Assembly (NCBI GenBank): GCA_014925825.1
Contig: JACGCK010000187.1
Location: forward strand, 1 to 64,000
Direction of reading: 5' to 3'
DNA length: 64,000 nt
Origin: Pholiota molesta
Lineage: Eukaryota; Basidiomycota; Agaricomycetes; Agaricales; Strophariaceae
The position numbers and the translations under genes were made by a program. This document shows, piece after piece, positions 18,481 to 51,575 of this stretch. Numbering within the stretch: position 1 is the stretch's first letter; each line of letters begins with the position of its first letter. The notes beneath the pieces are model-generated. The model worked only from the letters and a program-made list of their open reading frames with translations. It was not told where the DNA came from and made no database searches.

Positions 18481-18639
18481 ATAGTCAACATTATGTCATC
18501 TATCTACTGCCCCTTTTTTTTTTTTTAGATCTGAATAGACATGTAAGTGGTTGGTTGGCACCGCCTGGCACCGCCGCACGGTGGTGATATGTAATCAATC
18601 AATATCGAGATCGTACTTTCGCGTTATAGGTCTTAGGAC

Positions 18640-18900: not shown

Positions 18901-19383
18901 TTCGCCAGCGCGTGCCCCCGCGTCACAAACCGGGCACGCTGTGACTTGCTCTCGCGTAACACGGCGAAACGGCGCGGCTGCGTCATAGCGTGCGTGGGCG
19001 CCTAAATCTCGTGTCAAGTATCGCGTTTGCCGCATGCAAGCTCGCGCTCTCTCACGCTGCGCTTCTCCCGCCGCCTTCTTTCCGAGGAGCTCGGTCGCAG
19101 CGTTGGCTTTCCTTTTCCTTTCTTCCCTCCCTTCCCTTCCACCTCCTCGTCCAGCGCGCCTCGCCTCTCCCCGTACTTGCCGCCGTTTTTCTTCGTACCA
19201 CCACGCCATATTGCCGCTGCACCATGCTTTCATTGTCCCGCCCTTGACTTTGCGTCGGGCGTTTCGCCGTCGACTTCGCGTCCGGCCTCCTCGTGGACGA
19301 CCATAAACAATGCGTCGTGAATTCAAATCAGTTCATTAGCAGCTAAATAATAGACAAGTGAGTCTCTTTCATAATATACGGGC

Positions 19384-19415
19384 GGCTTGAGCTCAGGCCT
19401 GGCTCGTCGCCTGTG
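19384..19415 (-). repeat. Dispersed 33-35 bp motif, copy 2 of 4
   Basis: Minus-strand copy of the motif first described at 16356, with two small differences, again next to a GACTCACTTG-like sequence. Confidence 0.55.
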
Positions 19416-19459
19416 CTTGATGCGCTATCCGTTTAACTAACCAGCTTTTTTATTCTTAG

Positions 19460-20320
19460 TACCTCGTTGCTAGTGTGCAACCACCGTTCCAATCGCCACC
19501 ATCGAGCTCTCTAGCGCGCAGCCACCACCATCGCCATCGAATGTGCCGCAACCGTCAAGCCTTCCAACCGCCGCCATAGAGCTCTGGCGCGCAGCCACCA
19601 CCGCATCGCCATTGAACTTGCCAGCCTTGCAGCCTCCAAACCTGCCGACGTTGCAGCCGCCGTCATCGAGCCTGCTACGTACGACATCGAGCAACCGACA
19701 TCGAGCCTCGGAGCCGCCGCCATCGAGCTTGTGCGAACATGACCGCCGCTTCGTCGAGCTCGAGCCTGCTCGGAGCCACCGCCATCACAGAGCGCCTCAC
19801 AAGTGCATCATCGACAAGTGGAGGGTGGCCGAACATTGAGCGCTGGCCCAGCTCGACATCTCTCCAACAAGTAGCCGCCGTCACGGTCCAGTGTCGCCGC
19901 CGCCAATCCCTACGACAAGTACGACGGCCCCGTCGCCACCGCTAGGTGGGCAGCCTTTATCGGCGTCGAGTGCTGGCCGCCAACTCGATGCACTCAAGGC
20001 CGCGGCGCGAGTACCAGGGTCGCCTCGCAGCGTGACGAGCGTAAGGACCGGGCAGCTTTAGCCCTGCTCGTTCGAAGAGCCCAGCTGCTAGGAGGGTGTC
20101 GACGCGTCGTCCACTTGCTTGGAGGCGCATCGAGCTTTCGAGCTTTCGAGCTCGCCGTCGCTGCCCGTTGGGCCATCGAGCTTGCTCGCACCGGCCGTCG
20201 ATGTCGCAGCCAAGTCGCAGCTGCTGTCGAGGGCTCACAGCCGCCCACCGTCACCGGGGCCGCCTCGTCGAGCACCAATGCGACAAACGCGAGGCCATTG
20301 CTCGCAGCTGCCGCGAACTA
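19460..20320. repeat. Low-complexity TCGAGC-rich stretch
   Basis: About 860 bp built from imperfect, irregular repeats of a unit like GCCACCGCCATCGAGCTC. Long open frames exist on both strands at once, because the repeat lacks stops in several phases. I do not regard any of them as a gene. It lies between the truncated NACHT gene and the 3' end of the Crypton-like gene. Confidence 0.5.
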
Positions 20321-20351
20321 AGATAGATTTTGTAGATACTGACATGTCTGG

Positions 20352-20507
20352 TAGATATCATAATAAATTTTATTAACAAACTATGATAAAGTGTCGGTTT
20401 TAGGGATAAGAACTATTAAGAAGATTCAGTAGATATCACAATAAATTTTATTAACAAACTATGATAAAGTGTCGGTTTTAGGGATAAGAACTATTAAGAA
20501 GATTCAG
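20352..20507. repeat. Two tandem 78-bp units
   Basis: The unit beginning TAGATATCAYAATAAATTTT is present twice, 20352-20429 and 20430-20507, with a single difference. It lies 45 bp beyond the stop codon of the Crypton-like gene. Confidence 0.9.
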
Positions 20508-20551
20508 TAGTTTATATATTTAAAAAAATGTGTATGTCCTGGTGAACTACA

Positions 20552-23500
20552 CTATTTCTGTGCTTCTTCCTCTCTAGATCTCTTTTTTTCTTGAAGTGAT
20601 TGATGAAGCTGGTTGAGGCTTCTTGTACCCCGGAGTCCTTCGAAATGTGCGACGGCCTCGATAGAGCTGCTTCCGGTTGCTTCTAAGGCCCGAATGCGCG
20701 AAACAAAGAAATAAAAGTTACCCCAAATCTTTCGAACCTTGAGACCAAGTTAAATACTTAATTGGATGTTTACGAGCAAGAAAATACACTCACCCTGTCA
20801 TTCTTGTGGGGCCTCCATGCTGCGTACTTTCCTTTGTTTGTCTCCTGATTCTTCAGCGTGCCCCAGCGAGCTTCAATGAGTCGAAGGGCTGGAAGACGTC
20901 CGACACCCTCAACAAAACTTCCTTCATCCCAAGCCTGCCAAAGATCCCCCATATTGTTGTAATCTCCGAGGTTTTTGGGCGCATAAACTTCCCATAATGC
21001 GACAGGATTCACCACTCTTTCAAATATATGTTGCCATGTACTGTTGTAGAAGCTAGGAAATTCGGAGTCGTGAAATGCGGTAGGCGGTGGGAGAATCGGG
21101 TCATGGAGAATTTGGACAGATTCCTGGCCATACAACAAGTTGGGGGGCGTCAAACGGAGAACGTGGTATATCTTTCCTGTCTTCTGAATTGCGACCGGTA
21201 TAATCTTTGAACCACCATTGAGATGTGGCTGAGGCGGGCTTGGAGTTGGGTTGGGCGCTAAAGTTCGTTCATATGATGGGCGAGGAGGAGTTGTTGGGGG
21301 AACAAAGGATGCAAAAGAGGATATATTTATTAGATGGTTGGGGAGAAGCATTATCATGGGTGTCGAGTTGCATCGGAGAAGATGATGGGCCAGCGCCGGG
21401 AGTGGAAATGGGTAGCTGACTCTGATGCGATGTCTTGGGGCGCTTCGAAGGCGAAAATATCTCTGTGCGTCGAGAAAGAACTTCATGCATATTTGATGAA
21501 AGCTTCTGTAAGTCGTTGATTTGTGTTGATAACCTGGTGAATGCATTGCGAGTGGATGTTTCATGAAATTCCTGGCTAACAGTGGAAATAGAAGCCTGGA
21601 CATCGGCTTCAGCTTGAAGAAGCTCTTTCCAGTTTGCGAGAAAGGTCTGAGCCTCGGGAACATCATGCAAAATATGCAGACGCTTGACAATCAATGTCCC
21701 CGGATAGGCGTCATTAATTGCAGCGATTGTCTTAATAAAACTCATAAATAAGTTAAACCGATAGTCAGAAGGAGTTAAGAGTACACACCCGCCAAAAGAA
21801 AGGTCGCAAAAATTGAAGCAGGTTAAGAAAACTGAAGGTCGCCGGGTTTGAATGACCTTCATTTCGAAGACGGGTAATTATCGTCTCGCAAAAAGGAAAT
21901 ATGTGTTTCTGAAGGTTTTCAGGTACCTCAACACGCGCCCATGGTACATGATATGTCTCGCCAACAGGAAATCCTGCAAGTGCAATAACAGCCTATAATA
22001 TAAGGTGAATTTCATCATAAATATAGCATCTGTAGAATTATACTCACTGCTTTTGGTATTTTTGCGGCGTAAACTTCACGCCTTGTATTTCCTTCCCAAT
22101 GCCCAATGGCGTCAACTTGATCAGCTGGAACACTACAGGCAAAGGTTAGAACATGAATATAAAAGATAAAATAAAACATTGTACATACCCCATTTCTTCC
22201 ATAATTGCAGGAATGGTGCGACGAGCAAGATGCGCTTTCTTGCTTGATGTAATGCTGGTCTGATCAAGAAAGACTTTGTACATGCGGCCTACAGCATCAC
22301 CAGTGCTTGGCTGGTCAACTGTCTTTCCAAACAATACACGAACCTATGTAAAAATTAGTTAGAGTATATATTACCATGCTGAATATTAAAATTACCTGAC
22401 GCCAAGTCTGCGGATGCGACCATTCCCATGTCGGAATGCGACGAACTAGATCTTCTTGGTCGAACATAAAGTGCAGTATTATTGCGAGGGCGCCTACTGG
22501 ACAGCGAAGGGGATCTTTATGAGGAAGAACAAAGCTATGAGCTGGTTCTGTTTTCTTATTAATTGATATTAGCTCAAGTATATTTGCAGTGTTGAAAAAT
22601 ATTATACTTACTCCAGGAGACTGTCTTGGTCTCATAATGAAGGGCCAAGACACCAGGAATATTTTGTATAATCGGAGAAACACTCCCATCCTGTAGTGAT
22701 ATTCTGGTACCCGTAGTGTGTATGGATGAATGCATGCCATAGGGAGTGAAACAAGCTCGTCACTCCAGTTCAACATTGAACACTGCCATGTCCATGCAAA
22801 GTGTGCCTTTATAACAGAAGGAACTAAACATGTATGATAGTTAGCGAATTTATTGTGTGCAGAATTTTTTTTCCAACCCACGTTGAGATAAATGTTGCAT
22901 AATTGCGTCAGTAATCTCGCCAAATTGATCTGGTCGAAGCTCAGAGTCGAGAACTGTCCCTTTTGTGACATCGAAGTCTTCATTCCTTGGAGACAAAAAA
23001 AAGGTCAGAACAGCGTCATGGAACATTGATTTAAATTGAACATGCTTACTCCAACCGTAATCGCTGAGACTGTATCATAACTGCCTTGAAGAAATCATCC
23101 ATACGCGAAGTTTTGGCAGGCTGAGTTACTTTCAACTCCAGGTTCTCATCTTCTTGACGTCGGCGAACTCTTCCCAGCATTGTCAACGTCTTCTTGAGTG
23201 ATGCCTGTACATTAAATCAGGGCTAGAATAAATAAAATTCCCACAAATTAAATAAAGTACATACAGGAGATAGACGTGCAGTTGTAGCTTTACTAGTCCC
23301 ATCTGTATTAAATAGCTGTCGGCTTGCCTCTCGCTTTAGATACATAATCTGGTGATGGGCATCGACAATATGATCTGGTATTTCACCAGATTCAATGGCC
23401 GTGGAGACCCAGGACTATTATTTCTCAGTCAAAACTAGAGTACATAGTTGAATAGAAATTAATTTCTTACCCTCCAAAGCTTGAGAACTGAATTTTCTGT

Positions 23501-24271
23501 CACCCTTCCACTCTTTCGGCGTGTGTCAAGTATAAATTTATCCACCCATGCCAATGCATCATGTGTCCGAGGTGTATCCACCACCCCTGGATTGTGCACA
23601 TTCTCGCCAAGCTCGTCATCGTCGTCATCGCCGAAATTCTCGTCACCTTGATTATACCCAGCCTCGAAGGACCCTAGCATCTTTTCGGCGTCAGCGTGCA
23701 CTTGACGGCCGTCAATCTGCACTATGTCGACACCCAGGAGCTCGGCTCCACCAGGCTGTGAGGATGGGTCCTTCTCAGCGGCCTGCGGCGATGCGTTCAT
23801 GCGGCTAAAGTTAAGCTTTCGTGTGAGAGAAATACATAAAAAGAAGAAAGATCTGATGGACGCACGAGTGATTCCCAGACGTAGTAGATAAGCGCTCAAT
23901 CAATTCCGCCTTTTTACCCACTGTGCTCAGCCCCCGGGTGCGGCAGAGCTGCTTGAGCTCGGTAACCTTATCTCGGAGCTGTGTTGGGCGTAGTTAATCA
24001 GTAAGAAATGCGAATAAACTCATAGAAATCAATGTAAGTCTATAACTCACTATGCATTAGCACCCGACGGGCGTGCATCGAGCGCCGGCGCTCTATTCTG
24101 GGCGTGAGATTGCATAGCCGTGGGTGCGTCTTCGAGAAGCGTATCAATCATTCGGTGTGTCTCAGACATGCGTGCCGAGAAAAGCTTACCGATGTCATTC
24201 TCCGCGGTTGGATTGGGCATTGGATACTGCGCGTTTAATAAAGCGGGGTCAAGAGGGATGTCGTGCTGCAT
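20552..24271 (-). CDS. Crypton-like tyrosine recombinase with SAP and GCR1_C-like domains
   Basis: Crypton elements are DNA transposons mobilised by a tyrosine recombinase (YR). The gene is on the minus strand with about ten or more exons. Near the start, VTELKQLCRTRGLSTVGKKA (around 23.95 kb) is a SAP DNA-binding domain. A Glu/Asp-rich region follows, then an Ndc10/Crypton core. Its catalytic region shows KAHLARRTIPAIMEEMG, and across a 50-bp intron DAIGHWEGNTRREVY: the H-x-x-R, GHW and tyrosine of YR enzymes. The C-terminus has LWQAWDEGSFVEGVG and LRLIEARWG, like GCR1_C domains. I add a last exon (about 20.74-20.55 kb, VRKIWGNFYFFVSRIRALE to SREEEAQK). The 24271-24050 block ends in a stop and does not join the SAP exon in frame at the obvious donor, so either another start is used or the 5' end is damaged. 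Other exons splice well, so the gene may be recently active. Confidence 0.75.
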
Positions 24272-24399
24272 TTTCGTGCGGTTTCCGTGTGCGTAGAGAG
24301 TGTAGATTGCAAAAGTAAACTACGAGTACAAAATTGTTATCTTTTTTTCCGGCGCCTGCGGCGCGCCTTCCATTTTTGGGACTTCACCTTCGGTTCTTG

Positions 24400-24490
24400 G
24401 GGATCACGCAAAGTCACAACTTTGGCCGGCAGAGTTGTGAACGGCCCGCGAGTTCACAAGTCACATGTTGTGAACTGCGCCAAACAACTT
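24400..24490. repeat. TTCACAA/GTTGTGAA motifs upstream of the Crypton-like gene
   Basis: AGTTGTGAAC, GAGTTCACAAGTCACA and TGTTGTGAACTGC occur within 90 bp, echoing the cluster at 18640-18900. Together they may mark the outer parts of one inserted unit of about 5.9 kb that carries the recombinase gene. Confidence 0.4.
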
Positions 24491-24605
24491 CGGCTGAGGT
24501 TCCTAGATCGACTGTCATCTATTATTTGGTCTGTTTTGAGAGACTACTTTCGCGTCTCGAACTTCCGCTCAACCATCGAGCCACCTCCCCATCTTCCCTC
24601 AACCC

Positions 24606-25640
24606 ATGCCTCCAAAGTTTAAGTTTCCTCAGAAAAACCTCTGTGACTGTAATCACCCGCTACTCTATTATACGGCTGGGGCCGCACAGAGCCCAAGCGC
24701 GTTAGCAAAAGCACTTACCAGTGGCCACGACCATGCACCGTTCCGTGCACCAAAACAGCCACCTGCCATTCAACCAATGGCTGGATTTCTTGCCCAGCAT
24801 ACTTGGCACCCAGCTGCCGCTTTGTCACAGCCTCACCACCCAAGTTCCGCACGTTCTATTCCCCATCGCCGTGCGCGTAGATCCCATCTTGCGTACTCAC
24901 AGCCCCTCATCTGAACCTGCTGAACAATGTCTGCGCTGTATGGATTTTGATCCCAGCACCGATGGAGGTATAAGCAGGGATGGAGAAGGTGTAGAAAATA
25001 CAGCTGTAAGTGATGCTGGTGAGACGGGCTCTCCGCGTCGAGGTGAGGAGCATTATTCCGAAGATTCAGATATCTACGCTCAAGTTCATATATCTACTGT
25101 ATATGTACATCTCAAACCTGTCAATAAAACACATTATAAAATCTGAGTCTCATCCTCCAATCCCGGAGCATGCCAATCAACTCAATCAACATGTTCCTCC
25201 AGCTCATTCACTAGAAATGACTCCAATTGTGCCCGATTTTCCGAATGAAGAACCTCAAGCTGTGGATGATATGCAGCCCCATTTAAATTTGACTGAATAC
25301 AACGGCATAACAGTCGAAAGCTATACCCAATGAGTTGAGAATTGCCCAAGCATTTATTGCAGCACTGCAGGAAGCGACGATGGCATGATGCTAATGACAA
25401 GCATCAGCTACAAAATCCTATTGCAGAGCTAGTTGATCTCACAGAAAACCCCATCTCCGCACTGACATCAACATTTGTTTGAACACAATAAGCGCCTCTG
25501 AGGAAACGTACAAAGATGTCCATCGATCAATCCATACTTACCTTGCTGGTCCACAGCTCCAGGCTATCTGGCGCAATCCCGAGGATGCTGAAGCTATGCG
25601 ACATCGCGTTGCGTTCAAGAGATTCTCCAGGAACTAGAAT
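24606..25640 (+). pseudogene. Degenerate 5' part of a probable Tnp2-type (CACTA/Plavaka-like) transposase gene
   Basis: The open frame MPPKFKFPQKNLCDCNHPLL starts with a Cys/His-bearing segment of a type seen at the start of agaric Tnp2-like transposase proteins. After about 25180 the reading EYNGITVESYTQ, then (past a stop) LRIAQAFIAALQEAT, resembles the region that precedes the Tnp2 domain. Stops and shifts then accumulate, and no Tnp2 catalytic part is present before family copy F begins at 25858. The assignment rests on remembered resemblance in short motifs and is tentative. Confidence 0.35.
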
Positions 25641-25857
25641 ACCGCAGCGATTTCAAAATTAGGCGAAAGCGGACTGCGAAATAACTCTGATGACGCTGAA
25701 TGCGCGATGAAGTGAAGTCACAGTCCCGTTGCGTCCGCGCAAGACGACAACTTCCCGCCAGATTATACAGCAAGGTGTGATGCCACTCCATAATTCCTTC
25801 AACCTTTCCGTAGATATAAACGAATTGCCCAATGGTCAGCGTCGCAGAATAGCATAG

Positions 25858-28045
25858 CCTGATACAGTTTGAATTCTGAAAGATCTAGCGGCGGTTGAAT
25901 TTCTTGAAGTAACTACGAGAGTACTTAGACGCCATAGATAGATTCTTGTTCACATCCCGCCGTTAGAGAGCGCCGAAGGAAGGTCAACAACGACCCTTAT
26001 CCTTATCCGAAAGAAACCGTTAACGTCGAAAGTTTTCGAGAACGCAGATCGCACTGTTTGTTAAGCAATCAATCAATAAACAAAATGAAACGAGTCTTGA
26101 GAATAGAGGCAACTCACCGTCGAACAAAGGTCGAGCATTCATGGCAGGCACAGGCCAGAAAGTTAATCAGATTGCTAGAATATTGATGGAACGAACGCGC
26201 GTTAAAACGAGCCAAAAGGCAATTCACCCAGAGAACGCCCCCGCAAGGATCTTCGACCCCGCCCGAACGACAGAGGCGATACTTTCTATACTCCTATGCA
26301 TGAGCTGCCACGCCCGACGGAGCGAAAATCCGCGCCTTGCGCACCACGCACAACATACACCAGGAACCTGCACTTTTATCTCCAGAAACACCAAATAGAA
26401 ATTACATCGCGCAGTCCAGGATCTTCGAGCTGCGAAGGTGGGTTGCGATACGGTCTACTCCAAGGAACATCAACTTATTGATTGTATCGATGAATGGGAA
26501 GGGCCGCAAAAGCAGACACCAATAGTTCCACCTCAGGGTGGAATGAAAATTATTCAAAAGGATCCGAGAGCTCCCCCTGGGCTGGCCACGCACCAGCCAC
26601 ATAGGCGGAAACGTCGAGGCGCAATAGGCCTCGACACACTCTCCGAAGTAGATGCAATCTTATTCCACCCTTTAGACAGTCGACTGGGGGTGCTGCTAGC
26701 AACTTCCGGGCCCAATGGCCTCCTTTCCCAAACACACACGGCGAGCCTTTGCTGTATGTCGAATTCTGTGGCACCAAAAAGATGAGGCTGGTGATTGCAC
26801 GAAACTCGAGATCGAGCTTTCGAGAGGACGCGAGGCAAAATACAAGGCCCAGCGCATGGATCTCAGGGTGTCGAGCAAGAGTCCCATCGCGAAAAGACTC
26901 CCCCAAGCCCAAGAGCATCGGCCTACGCCCTCAGACGCAAGCCTCCTCAAGCACCAACGCAAGCGACGCAGATGTCCGGCACCGAAATACGTCCACTGCG
27001 CACGCCCCATCCATCATGCATCTACCACTTTCGCCTGCAACAGCCCTGACACCGCGCTTAGACGAAACGAAGCTCCGCTGACCATGAAGCCTCCTACACA
27101 TGGCTCTCCTCCGGCCCTACGCTAGCTATGATGGCATTGGGAAGATGCCTCGGCCGACCAAGTAGGTGGCGATTCCCACTGGGAGCTAGCCTTTACGCGC
27201 CCCATCTTGTCCTCATATATCTCCGCCCAACCAACGATGCTGACGCAAGCTAGACCCTCGTGCAGGGCCTGCACCGCATCTACTGACGAACCTGGGTATC
27301 GACAACGGCAATGAGAAAAGGAGATGCGATATCAGCAGTTCGGCGTTCGCAACTGGGCGCACTGCTCAAGCATCACCGCCAGAGGTGGAGCCCACTCGCA
27401 AGCATGATGGCACACAGCGTTATGCTCTCCAAAAAATTTAGCAACAACACAGAGTACTGAGTCGCAGGCAGTGTACATATGCCGTTGCGCAGATAATGAG
27501 GCAAAGCCGCGGCGGGCGAGCATGCGGCATGAAGAGCCTCGCGACACGAGGACGGAAGGATCGGGCAACGACCTTCGTGGTAATGGGAGGTGCACATGAA
27601 GAATTGGCGGCTTACGCACCTCCAGCGCCCAGTTCCAGATGTCAAGCTTGGCTGCTAGACGGCGGCGGGGCCGGTGTTGCGATTCGATTGTATCCGCAGC
27701 AGGGGCCATCGAGTGCGGTCGTCGAGCTCGAGTAAGGCGGACCTGTTTCGAGAGGGTAGAAGAGGGTTGAGTCAGTAAATCAATACCGGGCATAGAAACA
27801 GGCTCGTCGACGAGCCCAGGCGTGAGCTCGAGTCGCGTGTGTAAGAATATCTTGCCTTATTCCATGCGTTTTATTCCGGGGTGTAGGCTGGCGTTGAGGC
27901 TACGCCACATATCAGTTTCGTTGGAGTGAGAGTGGACGGGACGGGAGCGCCAGCATTTATGTCGACATGGTGGGTCGCCACGGACGTGGGACACGACGAT
28001 GGAGGGCATTGGAGCGGTGTTCGAACTGACAATCGGAGTTTGTAA
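25858..28045 (+). pseudogene. Family copy F (dispersed duplicate of E)
   Basis: Collinear with copy E from the AAAGATCTAGCGGCGGTTG start to the CAATCGGAGTTTG end. The cassette at 26526-26671 has the full left palindrome (GTTCCACCTCAGGGTGGAAT) and the right arm TTCCACCCT. In the frame used by copies A to D it hits TAG. In another frame it is open and reads VPPQGGMKIIQKDPRAPPG then HQPHRRKRRGAIGLDTLSE (26438-26785). Downstream, a segment reading KKMRLVIARNSRSSFREDAR (26749 onward) matches MRLTITRSSRLSFQEDTR of copy E. The first exon equivalent starts with MAGTGQKVNQIARILMER at 26141. I could not assemble a continuous protein. Confidence 0.5.
27798..27836 (+). repeat. Dispersed 33-35 bp motif, copy 3 of 4
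   Basis: Same motif as at 16356 with an extra TCGTCGA-type insertion, in the corresponding place of the E/F duplicate. Confidence 0.55.
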
Positions 28046-28389
28046 TTCTTTTGATTTCTTGTCGTCCCTTGGTCGTCCCCATACTATCCCTTGATCATCG
28101 ATGCCAGCCTTTTTCTTGACTGTTTAGAACTTCGTTGCGCGCAAGCATCTTGGCTCTCGCTGGGGCCCTGGGCAACACCGGAGGACGTTGGAGGCCGCAG
28201 TGTTCATTCAAAGAATGGTCGGTCAAATGTCCATCAATCAACCCTCCATATGTCCATGTACATCGAACTTGACCAACGCCCGCCAGAAAGCTCTAGTGTG
28301 CCACAGTACGCTTCTGTCGGCGTCAAATACCTTTTCCAAGTTATCTCTTTCTAGAAGTAGAGACAGAGGACATCCCTGGTGAGTAGCTC

Positions 28390-29060
28390 CCAATCCATAT
28401 CAGCGGGGTGCTGATGTATTCGCAGCTGCGCGCAACGATCCACACAGATAGGTCCGCAAGTTGTATGCGCTCGTCTCGAGGCTGGTTCGGGGCCACTGAC
28501 CAACGCTGGCGCGCCTTCTGCACCTGAGGCAGCCTTATAGGTACCGGGACTCCAAGCAGATGGTGCAACGACCTCGCTATCGGTGGAATATGTGCGCTCA
28601 GGGTGTACGGTGGGGACTGATGGAACTGAGTGCGCTGCCGGACTAAGAGAGTGTTCGTCGGAGCCGTTGACCGCTGCGTGGTACGCACTGCGTATTAACT
28701 TCTCTGAGGACTAGCATAATGATCAACATCGTCTTCAGGCACGACAGGATTCGACTTCACCATCGGTTTCTCTGCTACCTTCCCTTCGTCCTGCCGCCCT
28801 GGTTCGCCCTGGTTCGCGGTACATTCTTTCTGAACGTCCCCGTATGATGGACTCCTACCGGGACGGCTGGGGCGTATACTATACAAGGGTGGGATCTGAA
28901 CTTAGCTCAAATCTGGGATGGCGTCGAGATCCTTTGGAACTCGGCGCTTCTGTCGAGGCTGCTGGTGATATTACCGCGCCGAAGGCACTCTTAGATCTTT
29001 GGTGTCGTACTCCGGCCCACCCTTGCATGGTATGCTCAGTTCTGGAATGTCTTGCTGTGA
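28390..29060 (-). pseudogene. Family remnant I
   Basis: On the minus strand a cassette between CCCACCCTT (near 29020) and AAGGGTGGGA (28885-28894) reads GWAGVRHQRSKSAFGAVISP, comparable with the GW...RSESA..GA pattern of other copies. Further 3' (28688-28390) a peptide with SAHIPPIARSLHH matches ARIPPIARSFRT of remnant J near 61.6 kb. Frames between these parts are broken. Confidence 0.4.
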
Positions 29061-33189: not shown

Positions 33190-34778
33190 TTCAACCTGAC
33201 TCAAGGACCATACACATAAAGTAAGAATGCATTCTGGAATAAGGAACGTAGAAAGAATAATAACGAACAACATGCGAACATACAAGCAGCCGGAATACAT
33301 ATCGAGGCCCGGCCCGTCTGCCGTAATCTAAACGAGTTCGCCATCGATCGCACGATTCGCACCTTCGTTCTGCTCTTATCTTGCGCTTGTCCGTGGATCT
33401 GGACTGTCCACGATCAGATTGCTGAAACGAACTGTAAGCATATTTCCTGATAGCTTTCTGTGAAAGGGTACTTACAAATAGAAATTTTCCCCCCAGGTCT
33501 CGATTGCCTTTTTCTCCGTCTCCTACTGCTTCCAAAACTCGTCGCAGATCACCAAACGGCAGAACTGGAGCGCGGTACCGATCGCGACGCTGAGTATTTC
33601 CGGCCGACCCTTCATCCGATTCGCTAACTCATCGTAGAACCGCTCCCCGCCTAGCATCACCAGCAGCTGCAGGCTGCCCGGGATCTTATCAAAGCCAGGG
33701 ATCGCCATCGTCAGATCGCGGCCGTTCGCGTCGATGGCCGATGCTGAGGATAGCGAGTGAAGGTGGATTTCGCGCGCTGGTTTCCACCGTAGCGTCCCGT
33801 GGATGTAGGCGGCGATTTCGGGATAGCGCTCCAGAAGGTCCCACTTCAAGTTCTCCGTCTTCAGTACTGCGGGCCCTTTATACTGCACAACCTCCTGCCG
33901 CACTTGGTGGAGAACGATGCCATTCCAGTGCTGCATCTGGCACTTGTGCATCTGGCACCGGCGATATTGTCGAGAGCCGGCTGCGATGCGGGAGTAAGCC
34001 TGCTGGACTTCGGATGAGGATGCCGCGGTCGTCTGAGCGACTCCAAGGAATGATGAAGGGTGTGTGCCAGCATGCGACGGTACTGACGGAGCCATCATCA
34101 GTGATGAAGATGGCTGCCACTCGACTGCTTGGGCATAAGGGTGATGGAAGGTCTTCGGCATTCCCGAGCCTGTCGCATTTCCCGGCGCCTGAGAGTGGGC
34201 GCCTATCCATGGCTCAGCCGCTTCCCTCTTCGCGCTAAAACATTTCAGACTGTTATTATTTGCAAGCTCAAGAGTGGAATCGGAGCAACGTACATCAGAG
34301 CAGGAGGCGCTGGGTTCGACGAGGACCCAGCGCTGCCGGCGACGGTGGCGCCCATCTGGCCACCTGCCGGCGAGCTCAGATTCAATTGTTGGATCATATC
34401 CCACTCTTCCGTGAAACTGGTATGGTCTGTCGAGATTGCAAAGTGATGGATGCGGTCCATCAGTACGATCTGACCAGCAGAAATTAACGAGCGCTTACAT
34501 AGGGAAACATTGCTCGCTTGAGGTTGAACCTGTCCGCCTCGCGATTCGGTTGACTGCGGTCGTTGTCGAGTATATGGCGCGAATGGACTCCCGATCGAAG
34601 GAACACCGGCGGATCGTATTGGTCCTATCGCAGATCCGGTGCCACTCGATGTTCCAGTTTGATTCTGAGGATACGGATGGGCGACGGCAGGTGCGGGTGC
34701 GTTGGACGGATCGTCAGCGTCGTTGATAGTTGCGTCGGTCAAGTCAAAGAAGAAGGGGTAAGAATTGCCTGTGGACAT
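33190..34778 (-). CDS. Gene X, copy 1: unrecognised protein, three blocks
   Basis: I do not recognise this protein. Block 1 (34778-34245) begins MSTGNSYPFFFDLTDATIND and includes SLISAGQIVLMDRIHHF. Block 2 (about 34240-33523) reads CFSAKREAAEPWIGAHSQAP, then the best conserved part: QMQHWNGIVLHQVRQEVVQY, LKWDLLERYPEIAAYIHGTL and LQLLVMLGGERFYDELANRM. Block 3 (33440-33190) contains RGQSRSTDKRKIRAERRCES. The TTTTAG just before block 2 is a good acceptor. No donor near 34.25-34.35 kb gives the right phase with an ideal consensus, so the first junction is unsolved. Copy X2 (51913-53450) has the same structure and most residues, which suggests the protein sequence was under selection until recently. 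In X2 the EFWKQLETEKK block continues across position 33530, whereas here a stop (TAG) follows FWKQ, so X1 is probably damaged. Confidence 0.5.
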
Positions 34779-35229
34779 AGCGAAGATTAGCTAGGTTGAG
34801 AAGATGGGTTGGAGTTGGTGGGGTGAATTTCTTTAGGGAGTCGAACGCGTTGCTTTTAAGCTGTAAGGCTCTTTACCCCTTCGTCGCATCGATTGCGCTC
34901 GGATTGAACTTTTTTCTTCACCATCTTTGACTTGCGCATGCACCCTGAACTCTGGCCGCAATGTTAACATCTCTGGTAATGAAATGAAGTGCACATCACA
35001 AGACTCTTTTTCCCCCATTGTTCGCTCTTGACCAATTCATGACTCGGTCCTTAAAAGTACATGCTGACTACTTTACAGGGCTGATGATACAGAAACGGTA
35101 ATATCCCTACGCCAGAGATCATTATGATAGCGGTACGTTGCGTACCGTGCGTTTGCAAAGCGGCCAGTGATATCGCACTGTTTATTTTATTTTATTTCTT
35201 GATTAGGCAAAAGGCATGATCTGCCTCGG

Positions 35230-35560
35230 CAAAATCGGCGACAGACCGCACCTCGTTATTGCTGAATCAGGGGGTTCTCATCAAGTGTGAACCTATGGCC
35301 TCCCCGGCTGGAGAGCACGAGGACTTGATGAGGACTGTGCGTCGCACAACATAAAGAACATTCACAATTTGAAACCAAATGAAGTTGAGGCGAACCAGAA
35401 GCGGGCCTAGGAAACTAATAGGAGAACTGCGTTTAATCTGGAGCCACGAGGGTGACAGTGAGATACAAGTTTACGTGGATGATTTTCGATATTGCCAATT
35501 TAGTACATACAGGTCGGTAGGCGCATCAACTCAAAGGGGCAACAGTTAGATACAATTCAC
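35230..35560 (-). repeat. Paralogue of the flanks of the 45.5-51.6 kb element (empty site)
   Basis: Read on the minus strand, this segment runs without interruption through sequence that at 45.2-45.53 kb and 51.57-51.65 kb is split by the 6-kb element. The single copy of the target (GACAGACCG, 35240-35248 as read on plus) corresponds to the 9-bp duplication CGGGCTGTC. It is diverged but clearly collinear on both sides (for example GCCGAGGCAGA/CCGAGGCAGA and CAATAACGAGGTG/GTAATACCGAGTTG). Confidence 0.75.
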
Positions 35561-35589
35561 GTTCAGCAAGATGAACGAGAGAGACAAAA

Positions 35590-35860
35590 AAAAGTAATAA
35601 CACATATCACGATTAACAACAAATCCAACGCCGATGTCCCGAAGCATTTGGCTAGGGTCTCAACAACGCCTTCCGCGCCTCTTTGCTCGCCTTGCGTGCG
35701 CTAAGTATTAGCCAGCGACGGCCGCGCCGAACTGTCCCCAGCACTCTTCCCCATCCGTACCGCCACACCGTCGTGCTCCCCAGCACCCGTCGCCGCGCTC
35801 TACCGACCCAAGGTGCAGCTGTACGTCTGAAGACAGAAGCGAATCAAACAATCGACCATG
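35590..35860 (-). pseudogene. 3'-tail fragment of the NIMA-kinase gene
   Basis: On the minus strand this copies the last 150 or so coding bases and the 3' flank of the kinase gene at 44.73-44.94 kb ([15 protein letters not shown], stop, then ATGCTTCGG). One stop (TAA/TTAG region) falls inside the copied coding part. It marks one edge of the inverted segmental duplication. Confidence 0.7.
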
Positions 35861-41274: not shown

Positions 41275-44200
41275 ATGACATCTTCACCACCCCCCTTCCT
41301 CGAGAACTACGAGTCCCTCGACGTCATTGGCAACGGCTCCTTTGGCATCATTCGCAAGGTGCGACGGAAGTCGGATGGCCTGGTGGGTTTTCCCCTTTGT
41401 GTATCGAGGCTCTCGTCTTCATCGTCGGTGGCAGATATTCGCACGAAAGGAACTCAACTTTGAGCGCATGACGGAGCGCGACAGAAAGCAGATCGTCGCC
41501 GAAGTGTAAGTCCCACCCTCCGCATCCAAGCCACACCCCCCACCCAACCCCCCACCCCGCCACAGGAACATCCTCAAAGACCTGCACCACGACCACATCG
41601 TGCGCTACCACGACCGCTACGTCGACCGCGACGCGGGCATCCTCTACATCCTCATGGAGTACTGTGGCGGCGGCGACCTCTCCACCGTCATCAAGCACGC
41701 CGCGCGCGCGGGGCGGCCCATCCCGGAGGACACCATCTGGGGCTACTTCTTCCAGATCCTGCACGCGCTGCAGCACTGCCACCACCCGAACGGCCACGGG
41801 CGCTCGAGCAGCGGGAACACGGTGGACTTTGGGCAGCAGGGGCAGGCAGGCGGCGCGCGGCGGCCGCAGATCCTGCATCGCGATTTAAAGCCTGATAACG
41901 GTGCGTTTTCGTCTGGCTCTGCGTTGTGAGTGTAGGAGGCTGATGGATGGGCAGTCTTTTTGGACGAGAATCATACCGTCAAGCTAGGCGATTTCGGGCT
42001 GTCGAAGGCGCTCCCACAGGCGAGCTTTGCGAACACGTATGTCGGGGTACGTAGTTCTTTTTCTCGGCCAGTTGGTGTCTATCGGCTCATCCTCACCCTA
42101 TCCTGTGCAGACACCGTACTACATGTCTCCAGAACTCATGCAAGAAAAAGCGTACGACTCGAAATCCGACATCTGGTCGCTCGGGTGCCTCATCTACGAG
42201 CTCTGCGCGCTCAAGCCGCCGTTCCACGAGGCGAAGACACACAGTGAGCTGAGCATATTCATCAGGTCCGTGCTCCTCCCTTCGCCCCCTCCTTCGTATC
42301 GTCCCGCCCCGATCTTTGCGTGTTGATTCCTTCGTTCGTCGTCTTTTAGGAACGGCCGGATTCCGCCTCTGCCACGCGGGTACTCCCAAGCCCTCACGTC
42401 CGTCATCAAGTCCATGCTCAACCTCAACGTAAGCCCCTCCCCTCCCCCACCTGCATCCGGTATCCCAAAAAGCTGACCCCACCCCCCTTCCTACAGCCCG
42501 CGATGCGCCCCTCGGCAGCGCAGCTCCTGCAGCACGAGCGCCTCGAGCTCGTGAGCAAGGTGCAGGAGACGGAGAAGATGCTCGCGGCGGTGAAGACGCA
42601 CCGCGCGGCGGTCGCCGCGAAGGAGCGCGACGTGCTCGCGCGCGAGGGCGCGCTGGCGGAGAACGAGCACCGGCTCCATGCGGCGCTCGCGGACCGTGAG
42701 CAGCAGATCGCAAGGCTGCAGCAGTTGTTGGCGCAGGCCCAGCAGGCGCCCCCACAGCAGCAGCCGCAGCCGCCGACGTTCGTGACTGCGCAGGCGGACG
42801 CGGCGGACCCGCAGGTGCAGGCGCTGGTGAAGGCAGCGGTCGCCGCGCGCGAGGCGGAGCTGCGCGCGCTCGTGATGCAGCGCGAGGCCGAGGTCGCGCG
42901 GGCCATTGCCCTGCGGGAGGAGGAGATCATGGACGCGGTGCGCGCGCGGGAGGAGGATGTGATGGCCGCGGTCCGGGCGCGGGAGGCGGAGATGGAGGCG
43001 CTCTTGCGGGAGCGGGAGCGGGAGGTGGAGGAGGGGCGGAGGCAGGTGGAGGAGGATGTGCGGAGGAGGGAGCGGGAGGTGGAGGAGGCGGTGAGGAGGC
43101 GGGAGGTGGAGTTGGCGGCTATTGAGGAGGAGCTTAGTCAGAGGGAGGAGGAGGTCAGGAAGGAAGAGTCGAGATTAGCGGAGGCGAGGAAGGAAGTCGA
43201 AGCTACCTTCCAGAAGATACAAGGCGGTGCTAAGTCCAATGCCAAAGGTATATTGCGGTTTTTTCTTACTTTGAGACATGTTTTCACTGTTCTTGATTTT
43301 TAGGTCGTAAAGAAAAGAGCCCCCTAGGCGAAGTGAAGAACCTCCTTGCCCCACTCACGCGCGCAGCGCAACAGAGCACCACACAAACGCGGACGCGCCG
43401 CGCAACCACATCATCCGCGAACCCTGCGCCTCCCACCCAACCTCTACCAACACAATCTTCTTCTTCATCATCATCATCATCGTCCGTCCAGCAGTCTTCC
43501 GAGCAACCAGCACCCGCCTCTTTCCCTTCACTTTCGCCGCCTACCCTCTCCGCGCTCGCCACGCCCGCCGCCGCGCGGTGTCCGCCCGCCAACTGGCCGC
43601 CCATGAGTGCGATGAAGGGCGTCGTGCTCACCGCGACCGGCGAGCCCGTTGCCACGCCCCAGATCGGGCAGGGCGCGCTTTTCAAGGGCGGCGCCGCGGG
43701 CATCCACGCCGCGCTCACGACGCCGCGCCCGAGCGCGATCGAGCTCGTCGCGCTGTTCGAGAAGAGCCCGCGCGTGGGGCTGAACTTCGGGCGGATCTTC
43801 GACTTTGAGGAGGGCGGCGCGAAGAAGGGCGGCGGCGCCCCAGGGAAGGGGCGGGAGGCGGGCGCGGAGGAGGACGGCGAGGATGGAGAGGAGGAGGAGG
43901 GGGGGCTGCCGCCGAGCCCGAGCCTGCGCACGCAGCGGGAGAAGACGATGGGCAAGTCGCGGGAGCGCGAGCGCGATGACGTGTCCGAGACGTCGTCTGC
44001 GTCGAGCGGTGCCTCTGCGGCGAACGCACAACCAGCGGCCCAGGCAGTAGCGCAGCAGCTCGTCGCTGGACCTCCGCCGACGCGTATCCGGCGCCCGTCG
44101 ATCCGCACGTCGGGTCGGTCGTCGGCGAATGGGAAGTCGACAACGTCGGTGGCGGCGGCGGCGGCGGCGGACGCAGCGCGGGAGCAGCACCCGCAGCAAC

Positions 44201-44868
44201 AACAGCAGCAGCAGCACGCGGTGCAGCCCAAGCCGCTGCCGCATCCGCACCTGCGGCCATCGACGAGCAACACCAACCTCCGCTCAGCCGCCTCGACGTC
44301 AGCAGCGGCGTCCGCCGGCAAGACAGCGGCGACGGCGGCGGTGGCGCCTGTTCCTTTCCCTGGCACGGGGCCCGCGCCGGAATACGATATCGCGGACGAG
44401 GAGAACCTCCCGAGCCCGTTCTTGAAGCGCGGCGAGAGGGCCGACAAGGGGATCAGCGTCAAGGCCGGATCCATCACCCACCCCACCTTCACCGCCGCGT
44501 CGTCGAGCGCGAATAGCAATAGCACGGGCAGCGCATCCGCGTCAACCGCGTCTGCGCGCTCGAACGCGAGTGCGAGCTCGACTACCACCACGACTGAAAC
44601 AACGTCGTCGGCGACCAAGGCGAAACGGCGCGCGAGTAGCGGGCTCCTCCTGCGCGCCGTGGCGGCGGCGAACAGCGCGGGCCGGCGGCAGGGGCTGGCG
44701 ACGGCGCCCCCGGAACTTGGCGTCCAGGGCGCGGCGGCGGGGGCTGGAGAGCAGGACGGCGGGGCGGTAGGGATGGGGACGAGTGCGGGGGACAGCGCGG
44801 CGCGGCCGTCGTTGGCTAGCGCGCGCAAGGCGAGCGAAGAGGCGCGGAAGGCGTTATTGAGACCCTAG
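41275..44868 (+). CDS. nimA: NIMA/Nek-family serine/threonine protein kinase
   Basis: NIMA-type kinases promote mitotic entry and chromatin condensation in fungi. Eight exons can be followed. The kinase domain is N-terminal, as in NIMA: glycine loop GNGSFG (in [14 protein letters not shown]), the ATP lysine in [19 protein letters not shown] hinge, HRDLKPDN catalytic loop, DFGLSKAL, then [10 protein letters not shown] across an intron, and [20 protein letters not shown]. An insertion rich in Gly, Ser and Gln sits before HRDLKPDN ([15 protein letters not shown]). After [11 protein letters not shown] comes a coiled coil of about 240 residues with repeated REE/REAE patterns (42.5-43.25 kb), then a disordered Ala/Ser/Gly-rich tail of about 510 residues ending [12 protein letters not shown]. 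The coiled coil fits dimerisation as in NIMA. The long tail is unusually large. A 3' fragment of this gene is duplicated at 35.6-35.86 kb. The symbol is given by family, not by a proven orthologue. Confidence 0.88.
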
Positions 44869-45517: not shown

Positions 45518-45526
45518 CGGGCTGTC
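45518..45526 (+). repeat. 9-bp target-site duplication, left
   Basis: CGGGCTGTC directly precedes the left end of the element and is repeated without change at 51567-51575. Confidence 0.85.
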
Positions 45527-45785
45527 TAGCCTCGTGACAAGGCCATCTAAAAGAGGAAGGTCGACCTCCGGAGGAATCCTCGATAGAGGGCCTGGTTTAA
45601 TTGCGAAACATTTTGCAGAGAATTGCAAAGGCCCCACTTTTGATGGCGGCATCACCGGCATTTTTCTTTGAATTCCTTTTGAAGAAAAATAAGCACGCGA
45701 GCAACACGCGAGCAGTCGCGCCGGATTGCCGCACTCGCGCGCGCGCTCATTAGTGTACCTTTGCATACGCGCTCGCGCCTCCCTC
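45527..45785 (+). repeat. Left terminal inverted repeat
   Basis: Pairs with 51308-51566. The best-conserved core is AAGAAAAATAAGCACGCGAG and CAACACGCGAGCAGTCGCGC. Similarity becomes looser toward the outer end and toward the inner end, where it stops about 10 bp before the helicase ATG. Many differences between the arms are C/T or G/A changes at CpG sites. Confidence 0.85.
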
Positions 45786-45794
45786 TCATGTAAA

Positions 45795-47960
45795 ATGGCC
45801 TCAGAAATACAATGCTACGTTCCAACCCTTCAAGAACGACTTCAATACTTAAGGACTTGCTCTGACACGGAGATAACGGAGCTTTCCACCTCTATCATCG
45901 AGTTCCAGAAAGACTCTCAGAATTACCTCGCAGAATTAACAGACGCCGAGCGAGCCATTTGCCACCGAGCTTCTGTCGTATGCTGGAGTGTTACCGAAGG
46001 CAAGCAGGTTCCCAGAAAAATGCAACTGCGCGCCATTCTAGCGGACAGGCTCGGAAAGGAGAGCTTAATATCTGCGCGAACAGGAAGCGGCAAAACTTTG
46101 CCTATTGCGATTAATATTCTCCTCGACGATCCTTCTAAAAATCTAGTCACCCTCACCCTATCCCCTCTTACATGATTGCAAGCTACTCAAGAGCAAGAAT
46201 TTGTTTCAAGATATGGCATTCGAACATTCGCTATCAATGACCACACTCCTCGCGATGACACTTGGTGGACAGTATGTATTTATCTCCATCGCTACTGCAT
46301 CTATTTAAACGCATACATTAATTTTTTTTAGACAAACATATACTCTAGTAACAAACCCATCAAACTTCCGGCTCAGCATCTTATTATTACCGTCGAACAA
46401 TTGTTTGTGAACGGACATGGACATCTTCCTCGCGTAGGGAACCTCATCCGCACAGCAAAATTCCAGAAGCTCATAGCGCGTATCAATGTCGATGAAGCAC
46501 ATTTCTTTTATACTGCAGGCTATCCACTGTTTGGCACTCCTGCTTTCCGCCCGGCTTGGGAGAAACTTGCGGGGCTAAAAGTTCTTCTTCGGCCGTCTAT
46601 TCGCTGGCATATGTTCTCAGCGACCTTCCCACCCCATATCCTCACTCTTGTCAAGGAAAGACTGCTCAAACCGAGCTTCGAATTCATTCAGCAAACATCA
46701 AACCGACCGAATCTTATTTATGCGACTCATCAAGTACCCGGAAAACTCGACGATGTTCAGAACTACGAGTGTTTTCTTAGCACGTTGTTCGACCTATCCA
46801 CTCACCCACACATTCTGATATTCGTCGATGATAAAGCGCTTACCTCAAAGATAACCAACCACTTGGATGGCTGTCTTCCACTCAAATATCGTGGAAAAGG
46901 AATAGTTAAACACTACCACTCCGGGATGTCGACGGAATATTTAGAACAGACACACGCCGACTTCGTCTCTCCAACAGGAACATGCAAGATTTTAGTCACA
47001 ACATCTGGCCAATCAGTGGTATTTTTATTTTGAGCTACTTTTCTACGTAGATGACTAACAAAATCTTCAGGGAGTTGACTTCCCAAACGTCAAAATCGTT
47101 GCTACGATAGGATTACCACCCACCATTGTCGACGCTCTGCAACGCGGGGGCCGAGGAATTTGGGTTGGAGATGAGCATGCCCTTTTTGTCATCTTCTACG
47201 AATCCTGGGCCCTTGAAATCGACGAGGACGAATATATGGAGGGCACTGATCCTGATCGCCCACGCGCCAAGCTTGGGGTACATTCACGTGCCCAGGAACG
47301 TGCACCTTTATCAGCTATACAGCTCGTTCGTTGTCGTACCTGCTTGCGCAAGTTTTATGCAGACTATCTGGATGACTGCGCAGAAAATGGTACACTTGTT
47401 ATTCTGACAATGTACATACACCTACTAATTATTTTTATTTTTATCTAGCTCTCGAATACCTTCACCGGTTCTGCTGTGATCGTCACAACAACGGGTTCAA
47501 TCTCCAGGAGTTCTTACCTGGAAAAATCTTCATGAACGAATCTCCTGCCGAAGAAACGAAGGCACCACGAGTCGTAACAACATACCGGCCCAAAACCGAC
47601 AGAGCAGCACTCGAAAAGAAGGTAATCGAATGGATGGACTTTCAGGCCGTGAACGATCCAGGTAAACGGCCGGCGTATGAAATTCTGTCCGTGGACCAGA
47701 TGAAGACTCTCCTACGTATTCCCGCAAAAAAGGTGACATCTGTGAGTGCTATTGTAGACGCGCTCGATGAAACCGACGAGTGGAAACAACGATGGAGCCA
47801 GCAATTATACGACCTGATATTCGAATTCGATCTCGCACTTACTACGAGCAAGGCTGCTCAGACTGCAGAAAAGAAAACCGTTTTGCGAGCTAAGCGTGCA
47901 GCAAGTCCTACTAGAGGATTTATTATTCAAACGCAAGAAGAAGTTGAGCCTCTATGTTAG
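45795..47960 (+). CDS. RecQ-like DEAH helicase of the element, one nonsense codon
   Basis: Superfamily-2 DNA helicase related to RecQ, unwinding DNA with ATP. Exons 45795-46271, 46332-47018, 47071-47389 and 47449-47960 are all in phase (664 residues). Motifs: SARTGSGKTLPIAI (Walker A), INVDEAHFFYT (DEAH), MFSATFPPH (motif III), HYHSGMSTEY and LQRGGRG (motif VI). A Cys-rich segment (RCRTCLRKFYADYLDDC then FCCDRHN) follows, like the zinc-binding part of RecQ proteins. An in-frame TGA at 46173-46175 stands in SPLT-stop-LQATQEQEF, where an arginine (CGA) would fit; the rest stays open. I chose the ATG at 45795 because MASEIQCYVPTLQERLQYLR starts the conserved-looking helical N-terminus and the TIR ends just before it. 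Many agaric genomes hold large numbers of such orphan RecQ-like genes. Its presence in a bounded element suggests why. Confidence 0.8.
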
Positions 47961-48000
47961 CCGGGAGTAGTTGTACAAAGAAACAGAAAAAATTGTAGTA

Positions 48001-51000
48001 TTAATCAAATAGACTTATTTCGTTCTCTCCCTCCTCTTGTCCCTGAATCTCTTGAAAATCTACCTGCGGGAGGTCATCAACTTCGTCATTGTCAAACTCC
48101 TGACCTGACTTGTATTCATTGATCTTCTTGTTGAAGATTGCAAGGGATGCTGTTCCGAACTTCTGATAACCTATGCGATGTAGATCCAGTACCGGCTTCG
48201 ATTGAATTTCACGGTTTTCGACGTATTCTTGTAATTTGAGCTCGCATGCTCGATCGGTGATACGAAAGACAAGCATGCTCGTATCGGGTGTCTTGTGCGT
48301 CGAACCTTGATAGCCGCATCCTAAGCTCGTTGTGACCCTCTTCTTGATCAGCTGTAGATAGTTTATCGAAGCGGATATGCTTCCAAGGCGTTCCCAGTTG
48401 CTGTACAACCCTTTAGCAGCGAATAAGGCCTAAAAATGCATCAGATCATCTGAACTTAATAATGATATACGAGAAATGAGACGTACCTTAAGATATCCAA
48501 TAAGGTGTTCAATATTCATATCAATGGGCATATGACGACCTGGCAGTCCAGAAGGGTTTACGAGCATGATATCGCGCATCACATCTCTAATAATTATTCA
48601 GGATTGTAAGTTATGCAAACAGAATTGAGAGATAATTACTCACGCAAATTCGGGTGGCCAGACCTGCTTGATGTTAAACAAAAGATGAAGGACTTCCATC
48701 GAATAATTATTCGAGCCTGCACCGCGGAAAGTACAAGCAATCTGGGGTAAGATGTCTTCGATACGGCCAAAATCTCCTGCAGAAATCGCGCTGATTAGTT
48801 CGATGACATACAAAAGGTCGCGAGTGAGGAGGATCGTGTTTGAATGTACAGAATCAATGTATGTTGATGGCTCGTCATTGAGCGCGTCGGCCTTCCGTTT
48901 CGCAGGTACTTCAGTAGGTGCTGTAGAAATAATAGGAAGCCCGTATTTATCGTGAATCAGCCCAGCAATGCGCAAGATGTTGGCAGGAGTTGGGTTCGAA
49001 GCAGCAAAGGCATCTAAAGAATCAAAGCCACATTCAGAGCGCCAAGCATTGAGAATGAGACCGTCGAGAATCTGAGTAAGTGCTGCAAGGAGGGTATGAT
49101 AGTCCGGGCGATCGTTGCCTAGTCGCGCCTTCTCGAGGAGGTTGAAATAGTGCGTCAGAGAACCATGCTCTGCAGCAGTGCCTTTGTGAGTATGCAATAG
49201 TGCCCAGATGAGGTTCATCACCAGATGAAAAGTACCAAACGCCAGCTGGAATACTTCTCAACGTTCCCAAGAATTCACGTCCTTGGCACGAAGCGATTGC
49301 ATGCCACGTATCCGTGCGTTTGTGAGCTGGTCATTCAAACTGGGAATGGCATTGTCGCCGAGAGTCTTCGGATCATGGTGCAGCTGTTCAATATAGGCGT
49401 TGTTGTGGACATGTAGATTTCCGGTGACACTAGCTTCCTCGATTGTAGATACCGACAGAGGATAAAATCGTGTCTTGCGGCCTATAGGAAGTGGTCGGCG
49501 TGGCTTATGCTGAAGAAGTGGCTCGCCAGATATGTTGTCGAACTCCGGCGAGTATTTGAATAGAATGATGGATATGTTAACAGCTGTCTGATGGGAGAAT
49601 ATTTCGGCGGAGGTTTGGGTGGGTCAGAGCTCGCCTAATCTAAGCGGTCGTGATTTCTTGAGATTGGCGATTATTGGTGCGAGCTTTAGATGGAGAGGAT
49701 CTACGCCTTGAAGCTCGTAGATAACGGGAAATGTTCCTGATTGGACCTTACACATAGCACCTGGCCGTTGTTCGACATACTTAGAGCTGATAAAATTGAC
49801 ATTGTCATATGAGAAAGCGTGTGGACCCTCGGATATTTTCTCAGCCTGTTCAAGCGAGAATCCATGAAGGCTGAAAATAATACTGCTGATAGAGCAGTAG
49901 GAGTTCGAGAGGCCGGCTTTGTGAAGGATGTTGATCATGTTTCGAGAGGCGCCCATCGACCAAGCTGTTAAGCCGAGGCCGATTTGTACTTTGGCGGATT
50001 TGAACAGGCGTCAATAATGGACTTGGGCGCTTATAATATTTCGTGTCTGCAATATCGAATAAGCTACGGAAATGCGAACAAGATTTGTCAATGAACTCAC
50101 TGTATGACAAGTCGACGGTGAACTTTCTTCTTCGCCGTCCTCAACTTCTACACGGGAGTGTTTCGGCTCAGTCGCAGCCGTAAGGACAGCCATCCACATG
50201 GGTGTGATGTCATTCGAGACCGGATCCATAATGGCATTGATGTCCCATGATTCAATAAAGTTGGTTGTCGTTTCAGCAGTGGTCATGCGTAGAAAAGGTT
50301 TGGCAGCTTCCATTTCATTGTGTACCATGTCACAAACAAGAGCGATAGCGTGCGGGCGCATCCACTCTTTCAGAGTTGCGGCCCCTTTCTTGTTGTCCAT
50401 AATCAAGTCTAGAAGTCGACAGATATTTTCTTCATTTGTTTGTCGAAAGAAAGCTTCGCCTAGTCGAGCATGGATGCCGCCTTCCTGTGCCGACTCCAGG
50501 AGGTTAATCAGCATCAGGGTCGGGGTAAGTCTGGCCTCTGTAAGGCTCTCCTGAGTGGCAATAATTGCCTCTGACTTAGATAGGCACTTCTTCCTGTCGG
50601 TGCTCTCTAATTCAGTGTCCTCGAAGCTATCGTCACCAGTGCTAATCTCGAAGTCGCGCTGATCTAAGAATTCCGGCGGCATTGCCATCAACGAGTTAAG
50701 CGGTGACAGATCTGGGGCGAACGCATCAAGATCGATCCCGTTGGCATATGGAAATGGCTCGTAGTCATCTGGGTAGGCGCTTTGAGGTGTTGGAAGATCT
50801 GGGGGATGGACTGGAGCATGATATAGTGTGCTCGGCGCTGTGAATAAGAGACTAGCACCCGGCGGTGGATTTGAGCTAAAATTAGGAATACAATCAGTGA
50901 GGTGAGCGCCTACGAGTAAGTTAACAAACTTTTGGTGATAATAATGATCGTCGTTGAATTTGTATTGATGTTGCGAGGGAAATGGCGACGAGTACGGATT

Positions 51001-51288
51001 ATGTTGACCGTATTCAAATGCTGGGTGTACGATGTGATTCGAAGGTGTTTGCGGTGTCATTAGACCATAATTCATCGAGCCTGCACCATGTGATGGCCCC
51101 TCCATTGTTTGATGGATGTCCGAGAGCGGGGTAAGTGAAGGGGCCATCGTTCTTCTGCGCTTGTATGTAGAGGTGGCTATATTACTGCCAGACACATAGA
51201 ACGTCAGCTGTGTGGTGTACCCATTTGGATTCAAGTTCTCTTGAGCTATCTGGGGATTTACGGAAAAATTCGAAGTCTTCTTAGGCAT
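48001..51288 (-). CDS. DUF6589-like protein of the element, candidate transposase, three nonsense codons
   Basis: Exons 51288-50101, 50046-48644, 48586-48487 and 48429-48001 join in phase and total 3,120 nt (about 1,039 residues). The N-terminal third (MPKKTSNFSVNPQIAQ onward) is His/Pro/Tyr-rich, probably disordered. A helical region with ATLKEWMRPHAIALVCDMVH follows. The conserved core resembles fungal DUF6589 proteins: GASRNMINILHKAGLSNSY, then FSYDNVNFIS, then MNLIWALLHTHKGTAAEHGS, LEKARLGNDRPDYHTLLAAL and DGLILNAWRSECGF, then SGLPGRHMPIDMNIEHLIGY. Single in-frame TGA codons lie at 50013-50011, near 49626, and near 49258. Each fits a former CGA arginine codon. DUF6589 has no demonstrated function that I know of. 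The Asp in YDN and the conserved His/Glu positions make an RNase-H-type fold conceivable but unproven. It is convergent with the helicase gene and ends 40 bp from it. Confidence 0.7.
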
Positions 51289-51307
51289 ATTCGGGTGGAT
51301 TTGCAAG

Positions 51308-51566
51308 TGCGAATACGAGCGTGTATCTAAAGCTAGACTAAGGAGCACGTGCGCGCGTGCGGCGGAAACTGGCGCGACTGCTCGCGTGTTGCTCGCGTGC
51401 TTATTTTTCTTCAAAAGGAATTTAAAGAAAAATGCCGACGATGCCGCCATCAATAGTGGAGCCTTTGCAATTCTCTGCTAATTTTGATTCACTTATACCG
51501 GCCCCTCTATCGAGGATTCCTCCGGAGGTCGACTTTCCTCTTTTAGAGGGGACGGTCACCGGCCTA
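51308..51566 (-). repeat. Right terminal inverted repeat
   Basis: Inverted partner of 45527-45785. Its inner end reaches to about 20 bp from the start codon of the DUF6589-like gene at 51288. Confidence 0.85.
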
Positions 51567-51575
51567 CGGGCTGTC
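51567..51575 (+). repeat. 9-bp target-site duplication, right
   Basis: CGGGCTGTC, identical to 45518-45526. The host sequence continues from here exactly where it left off on the left side, judged from the empty paralogue at 35.24 kb. Confidence 0.85.

Follow-up and report, generated by a model that had tools for sequence, protein, structure and literature searches.

A probable AcademH-type transposon in Pholiota molesta that pairs a RecQ-like helicase gene with a DUF6589 gene, its candidate transposase

Terminal inverted repeats (TIRs) are a general trait of DNA transposons of the kind considered here. Among these, AcademH is reportedly a lineage of the Academ superfamily that was described by Kojima in Mob DNA in 2020. 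As far as the accessible portions of the following sources go, AcademH comprises low-copy, helicase-encoding DNA transposons of fungi, including Basidiomycota, Ascomycota and Mucoromycota (PMC10799480), with target site duplications of 9 or 10 bp, while the sister lineage AcademX has duplications of 3 or 4 bp and encodes a nuclease instead of a helicase, and the difference in length has been tied to helicase versus nuclease (PMC10045372). An overlap between fungal Academ copies and genes that have DEAD and recQ_fam domains has also been reported (PMC6416283). Here we analyzed a stretch of 64,000 nucleotides from Pholiota molesta (assembly GCA_014925825.1, contig JACGCK010000187.1, positions 1 to 64,000; hereafter the window), in which a segment of 6040 bp (45527-51566) combines a RecQ-like helicase gene with a DUF6589 gene. 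This segment represents a mobile element that has decayed, and the element is very probably a two-gene cut-and-paste TIR transposon of the AcademH kind with DUF6589 as its DDE transposase. A helicase beside the transposase candidate and 9-bp duplications, which are hallmarks of AcademH, were both present, as were TIRs.

The ungapped inverted arms of the window element (45527-45745 and 51348-51566) comprise 219 nt and are 85% complementary, and a gapped alignment (45543-45775 versus 51316-51550) has 86.8% identity across 235 columns, which puts the TIR length at about 250 bp. A perfect 9-bp duplication, CGGGCTGTC, lies flush outside both TIR ends, and the identity stops short of 10 bp. The automatic scan favoured palindromes within the TIR and did not list CGGGCTGTC for the window copy, and this duplication is therefore credited by its position exactly at the TIR ends. 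The helicase and DUF6589 genes are convergent and, by the modelled coordinates, 40 bp apart, in agreement with an earlier sequence-only reading which had noticed the convergent pair within long TIRs and the perfect duplication. In-frame stops break both genes, one in the helicase and three in the DUF6589 gene, for which the source genome annotates a protein of 939 amino acids on the window contig (BJ912DRAFT_934026). Heavy CpG decay was considered as the source of these stops and is unsupported, with an observed/expected CpG ratio of 1.07 for the element and 1.08 for the whole window. Short palindromes within the TIR (CCTCCGGAGG and AGGTCGACCT; 45527-45610 and 51483-51566) may represent protein binding sites.

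Table 1. Positions of the element's features in the window, and the two-gene elements with exact 9-bp duplications
Feature	Position	Strand	Remarks
Left 9-bp target site duplication	45518..45526	.	CGGGCTGTC
Left TIR	45527..45775	+	ungapped core 45527-45745; gapped match reaches 45775
RecQ-like superfamily II helicase gene	45795..47960	+	four exons, GT/AG introns, one internal in-frame stop
Modelled exons of the helicase gene	45795-46271, 46332-47015, 47071-47389, 47449-47960	+	
DUF6589 gene, putative DDE transposase	48001..51288	-	ATG start; in-frame TGA at 49258, 49624 and 50011
Right TIR	51316..51566	-	ungapped core 51348-51566
Right 9-bp target site duplication	51567..51575	.	
Paralogous empty site	35187..35324	-	related repeat without the element; single target 9-mer with one base different
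Two-gene elements with an exact 9-bp duplication			C98 (window), C136, C456a, C104, C108, C46, C603, C257a, C257b, C180, C19, C25a, C76

The window element is a real insertion, because its joined flanks span to a repeat that lacks the element and carries a single copy of the target. When joined with one 9-mer, the flanks align across the join to the empty site on the minus strand with 108 of 139 columns identical and one CGGTCTGTC. The search covered 16 joined flanks, and spanning matches were obtained for the window element, C456a, C46 and the nested short copy in C345. C456a, which is located inside the end of another element of the same kind, has two empty sites: the one in C25 matches at 91% and retains the exact 9-mer, and the one in C19 matches at 83% and has a 9-mer that has diverged. 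For the C46 flanks, a match of 74% bridges the join at window positions 11742-12023 and was graded weak because the gaps fall at the target, and the target of the C345 short copy is itself a TIR. The window element is nested in another repeat (flanks at 43.5-45.5 kb and 51.7-53.4 kb; repeat at 33283-35801), and its right flank matches 33283-35002 on the minus strand with 88% over 1.7 kb.

The pairing of the two genes recurred throughout the P. molesta genome (65.6 Mb), in which the counts for large families are lower bounds. At least 61 exon-level matches to Pfam DUF6589 were grouped by hand into 36 loci, and two helicase queries gave 16 and 35 matches that formed 34 clusters and 33 loci, a cluster in C46 having been dropped for overlapping at its end only. 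Thirty-one of the 33 helicase loci were located within 3.4 kb of a DUF6589 match, and the remaining two were a weak match (C88, 22.9 bits) and a fragment near a TIR match (C596); at five of the 36 DUF6589 loci a helicase match was not found. Each of the 31 pairs consisted of two distinct genes, helicase and DUF6589, encoded on different strands; 23 pairs were convergent and eight divergent. Other copies hold both genes inside TIRs with 9-bp duplications, which bears out the proposal that they are together the coding content of one transposon; the accompanying expectation of convergent order applied to most pairs and failed for the eight divergent ones. C400 (130172-141474) contains two copies of 99.9% similarity that are inverted relative to each other, with 170 bp between them, and in C55 (40375-47666) more than 5 kb of unrelated-looking sequence apparently interrupts a helicase gene belonging to the C46 group.

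Eighteen two-gene elements were scanned at both ends, and 13 had an exact 9-bp terminal duplication (Table 1). The 13 duplicated 9-mers were all different, and the elements began with TAG in ten cases and CAG in three. Mismatched end pairs of 12 elements, used as a control, gave no exact 9-mer in 132 combinations, with at least five mismatches each. The scans let the position vary, in the divergent group over windows of 230-260 by 220-250 positions, so that a single exact 9-mer is unsurprising there; the weight of the duplications is that each one falls at the shared terminal motif. A 9-bp duplication at recognisable ends was not found in C40, C36, C613, C400a and C400b; C36 and C613 had no defined ends, and exact 9-mers from wide windows that lacked a convincing pair of termini were not counted. 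BLAST detected inverted arms enclosing the gene pair in 11 of 15 stretches and additionally in C76, and none were seen in C11, which is outside the 18 elements scanned. In C257a and C257b the ends share only a short imperfect match at the first bases (10 of 12). These two copies are more than 99.9% identical in their shared parts, C257b being 483 bp longer, and their homology stops at the termini, where the duplications differ between them. End inspection of short copies among the matches to the window TIR covered four (C37, C598, C25 and C345; 960-1124 bp), all of which had the window TIR and exact 9-bp duplications and were too small to hold both genes. The short derivative in C345 (166780-167974) sits with its 9-bp duplication within the TIR of a copy of its own family. 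Around the 6.5-kb element C180 a second set of inverted arms (158 bp, 95.6%) spans 10.8 kb (18152-28931), and no convincing duplication was found at these outer arms.

The helicase and DUF6589 proteins of 18 elements have diversified together. Their protein identity matrices were strongly correlated (Mantel r 0.96, Spearman 0.76), and none of 5000 permutations reached the observed Mantel r. Judged by eye the elements form five diverged groups and, since all eight divergent pairs belong to one of these, the gene order probably flipped once. The C46 helicase copy matched the Pfam domains DEAD (43.9 bits), Helicase_C (43.1 bits) and ResIII, and its best relative of solved structure by sequence was RecQ5 (E 1.7e-9). 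Because of the recurrent pairing and the co-diversification the helicase is most likely a standing accessory or partner of the DUF6589 transposase, which agrees with the accessory role that had been proposed for it.

The helicase-DUF6589 pairing is old. Among 68 helicase homologs in the protein database, 34 were found on a contig of the same size as that of a DUF6589 homolog (among the matches listed, 120 of 146). A shared contig was judged by an exactly equal base count, and a control in which sizes were shifted by 1-50 bp gave 0.23 on average and at most 2, versus the 34 observed. Of these shared contigs 27 were at least 6 kb long, and the matches included Mycena, Agrocybe, Irpex, Trametopsis, Cyathus and Amylostereum. 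Adjacent locus tags (H0H93_015956 and H0H93_015957) are assigned to the two homologs of Arthromyces matolae.

The DUF6589 family matched one exon piece of the window gene with 165 bits. An AlphaFold model of a DUF6589 relative (predicted local distance difference test score 87.5) resembles a DDE transposase of RNase-H fold with a helical insert, and the predicted fold has an acidic triad; the closest solved folds were Hermes and the P element. Foldseek alone gave no match at E <= 0.001, and a profile of 89 DUF6589 proteins compared by sequence with solved structures gave none at E <= 1. Within this family a GxxH motif is conserved, with G507 and H510 each present in 88 of the 89 proteins, and a profile search for distant relatives returned named proteins that were fungal among the matches listed (120 of 257). 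The DDE/RNase-H-like model, the recurrence of elements with TIRs and 9-bp duplications and the pairing with the helicase indicate that DUF6589 is most likely the transposase of the element. The candidate named in the sequence-only reading is thereby strengthened, its modelled fold being compatible with transposition.

Computation established the element's boundaries, its duplication, the empty sites, the pairing of the genes and their co-diversification, the short derivatives and, as a prediction, a fold like that of transposases; alongside these we infer a cut-and-paste mechanism with catalysis by D, D and E residues. The DUF6589 DDE transposase would pair the two TIRs and excise the element, the target would be cut with a 9-bp stagger, and the transposase would join the element there, with repair yielding the 9-bp duplication. 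The RecQ-like helicase encoded by the element has been kept with the transposase over long times and probably serves to unwind the ends or to resolve intermediates in end processing or gap repair.

Both genes could instead be host genes captured as passengers by an element with an unrelated transposase. The interruption of both window genes would suit such an origin, as would the result that no further open frame of more than 160 amino acids was found inside the window element, but the pair recurs and co-diversifies over five diverged groups and the DUF6589 model has a predicted DDE-type fold; we consider capture extremely unlikely and rejected it on the co-diversification. An assignment to Kolobok, more precisely KolobokH, is very unlikely as well. 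Kolobok inserts at TTAA, in contrast to the 13 different 9-mers duplicated here. According to the available part of one source, KolobokH is a DDD/E transposon that encodes a RecQ helicase and is known from fungi only, and in a Kolobok of a red alga the RecQ helicase is encoded on the complementary strand, which is also the case here; however, the helicase of KolobokH is located downstream of the transposase domain (PMC9587614), whereas every pair in P. molesta has the helicase as a gene of its own on the other strand. KolobokH was rejected on this gene layout together with the mixed 9-bp duplications.

It is also conceivable that the elements with helicase and DUF6589 constitute a separate fungal superfamily that uses the same mechanism and is merely AcademH-like in its helicase and 9-bp duplications. 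In favour of this, the tie to AcademH rests on descriptions rather than on transposase sequence, and DUF6589 is not named in the open-licence literature searched, where the four text matches to PF20231 were chance strings judging by the titles. Against it, helicase, duplication length and host range all fit AcademH in the portions of the reports at hand (PMC10045372, PMC10799480), which likewise mention the DEAD/recQ_fam overlap of fungal Academ copies (PMC6416283), and we regard a separate superfamily as unlikely. The corresponding broader claim, that a RecQ-like helicase and a hAT/P-like DDE transposase define a superfamily of their own apart from Academ, of which many DUF6589 and orphan helicase models in mushrooms would be the two halves, is similarly doubtful.

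With DUF6589 as the probable transposase, a Pfam family without known function, a recurrent entry in mushroom gene lists, obtains a likely one, and orphan RecQ-like helicases beside DUF6589 gain a partner. In annotation and expression studies, models of DUF6589 and of the RecQ-like helicases next to it should be handled as genes of transposons, and the co-diversifying pairs offer a direct way to test what a transposon-encoded helicase does in transposition. Elsewhere in the window, an open frame at 17259-18584 (plus strand) contains an NPHP3_N/NACHT-type NTPase domain (68.6 bits), and long open frames of 523 and 526 amino acids on both strands overlap the same stretch at 43287-44865, neither with a Pfam match above the cut-off.

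The sequence-only reading had suggested kinship with Mutator-like elements (MULEs), which have long TIRs, as this element does. Their duplications of 4-10 bp, as given in the accessible text of PMC10045372, cover the 9 bp observed. No Pfam match to a MULE transposase was obtained in the nine exon pieces and three proteins scanned, and the closest folds were Hermes and the P element; this suggestion is not supported, although the fold lists are compatible with Mutator kinship. The predicted DUF6589 fold is similar to hAT (Hermes), the P element and Transib/RAG1, in all of which a DDE core of RNase-H fold carries an insertion that is mostly helical. Duplications are 8 bp in the P element and 5 bp in Transib, and to our knowledge hAT, the P element and Transib/RAG1 have no helicase gene. 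For hAT, duplications are usually 8 bp in the literature extracts available, and hAT and P carry C/DxxH (PMC9587614, in part) where DUF6589 carries GxxH, a correspondence judged by eye. Since the testable hallmarks fit, we file the element under AcademH, a placement made by published descriptions of these hallmarks, as far as accessible. Because DUF6589 was not found in the open-licence literature searched, its identification as the transposase may not have been published before. The pairing had been thought undescribed, but fungal helicase-bearing transposons with 9-10-bp duplications are already described as AcademH in the parts of the literature consulted.
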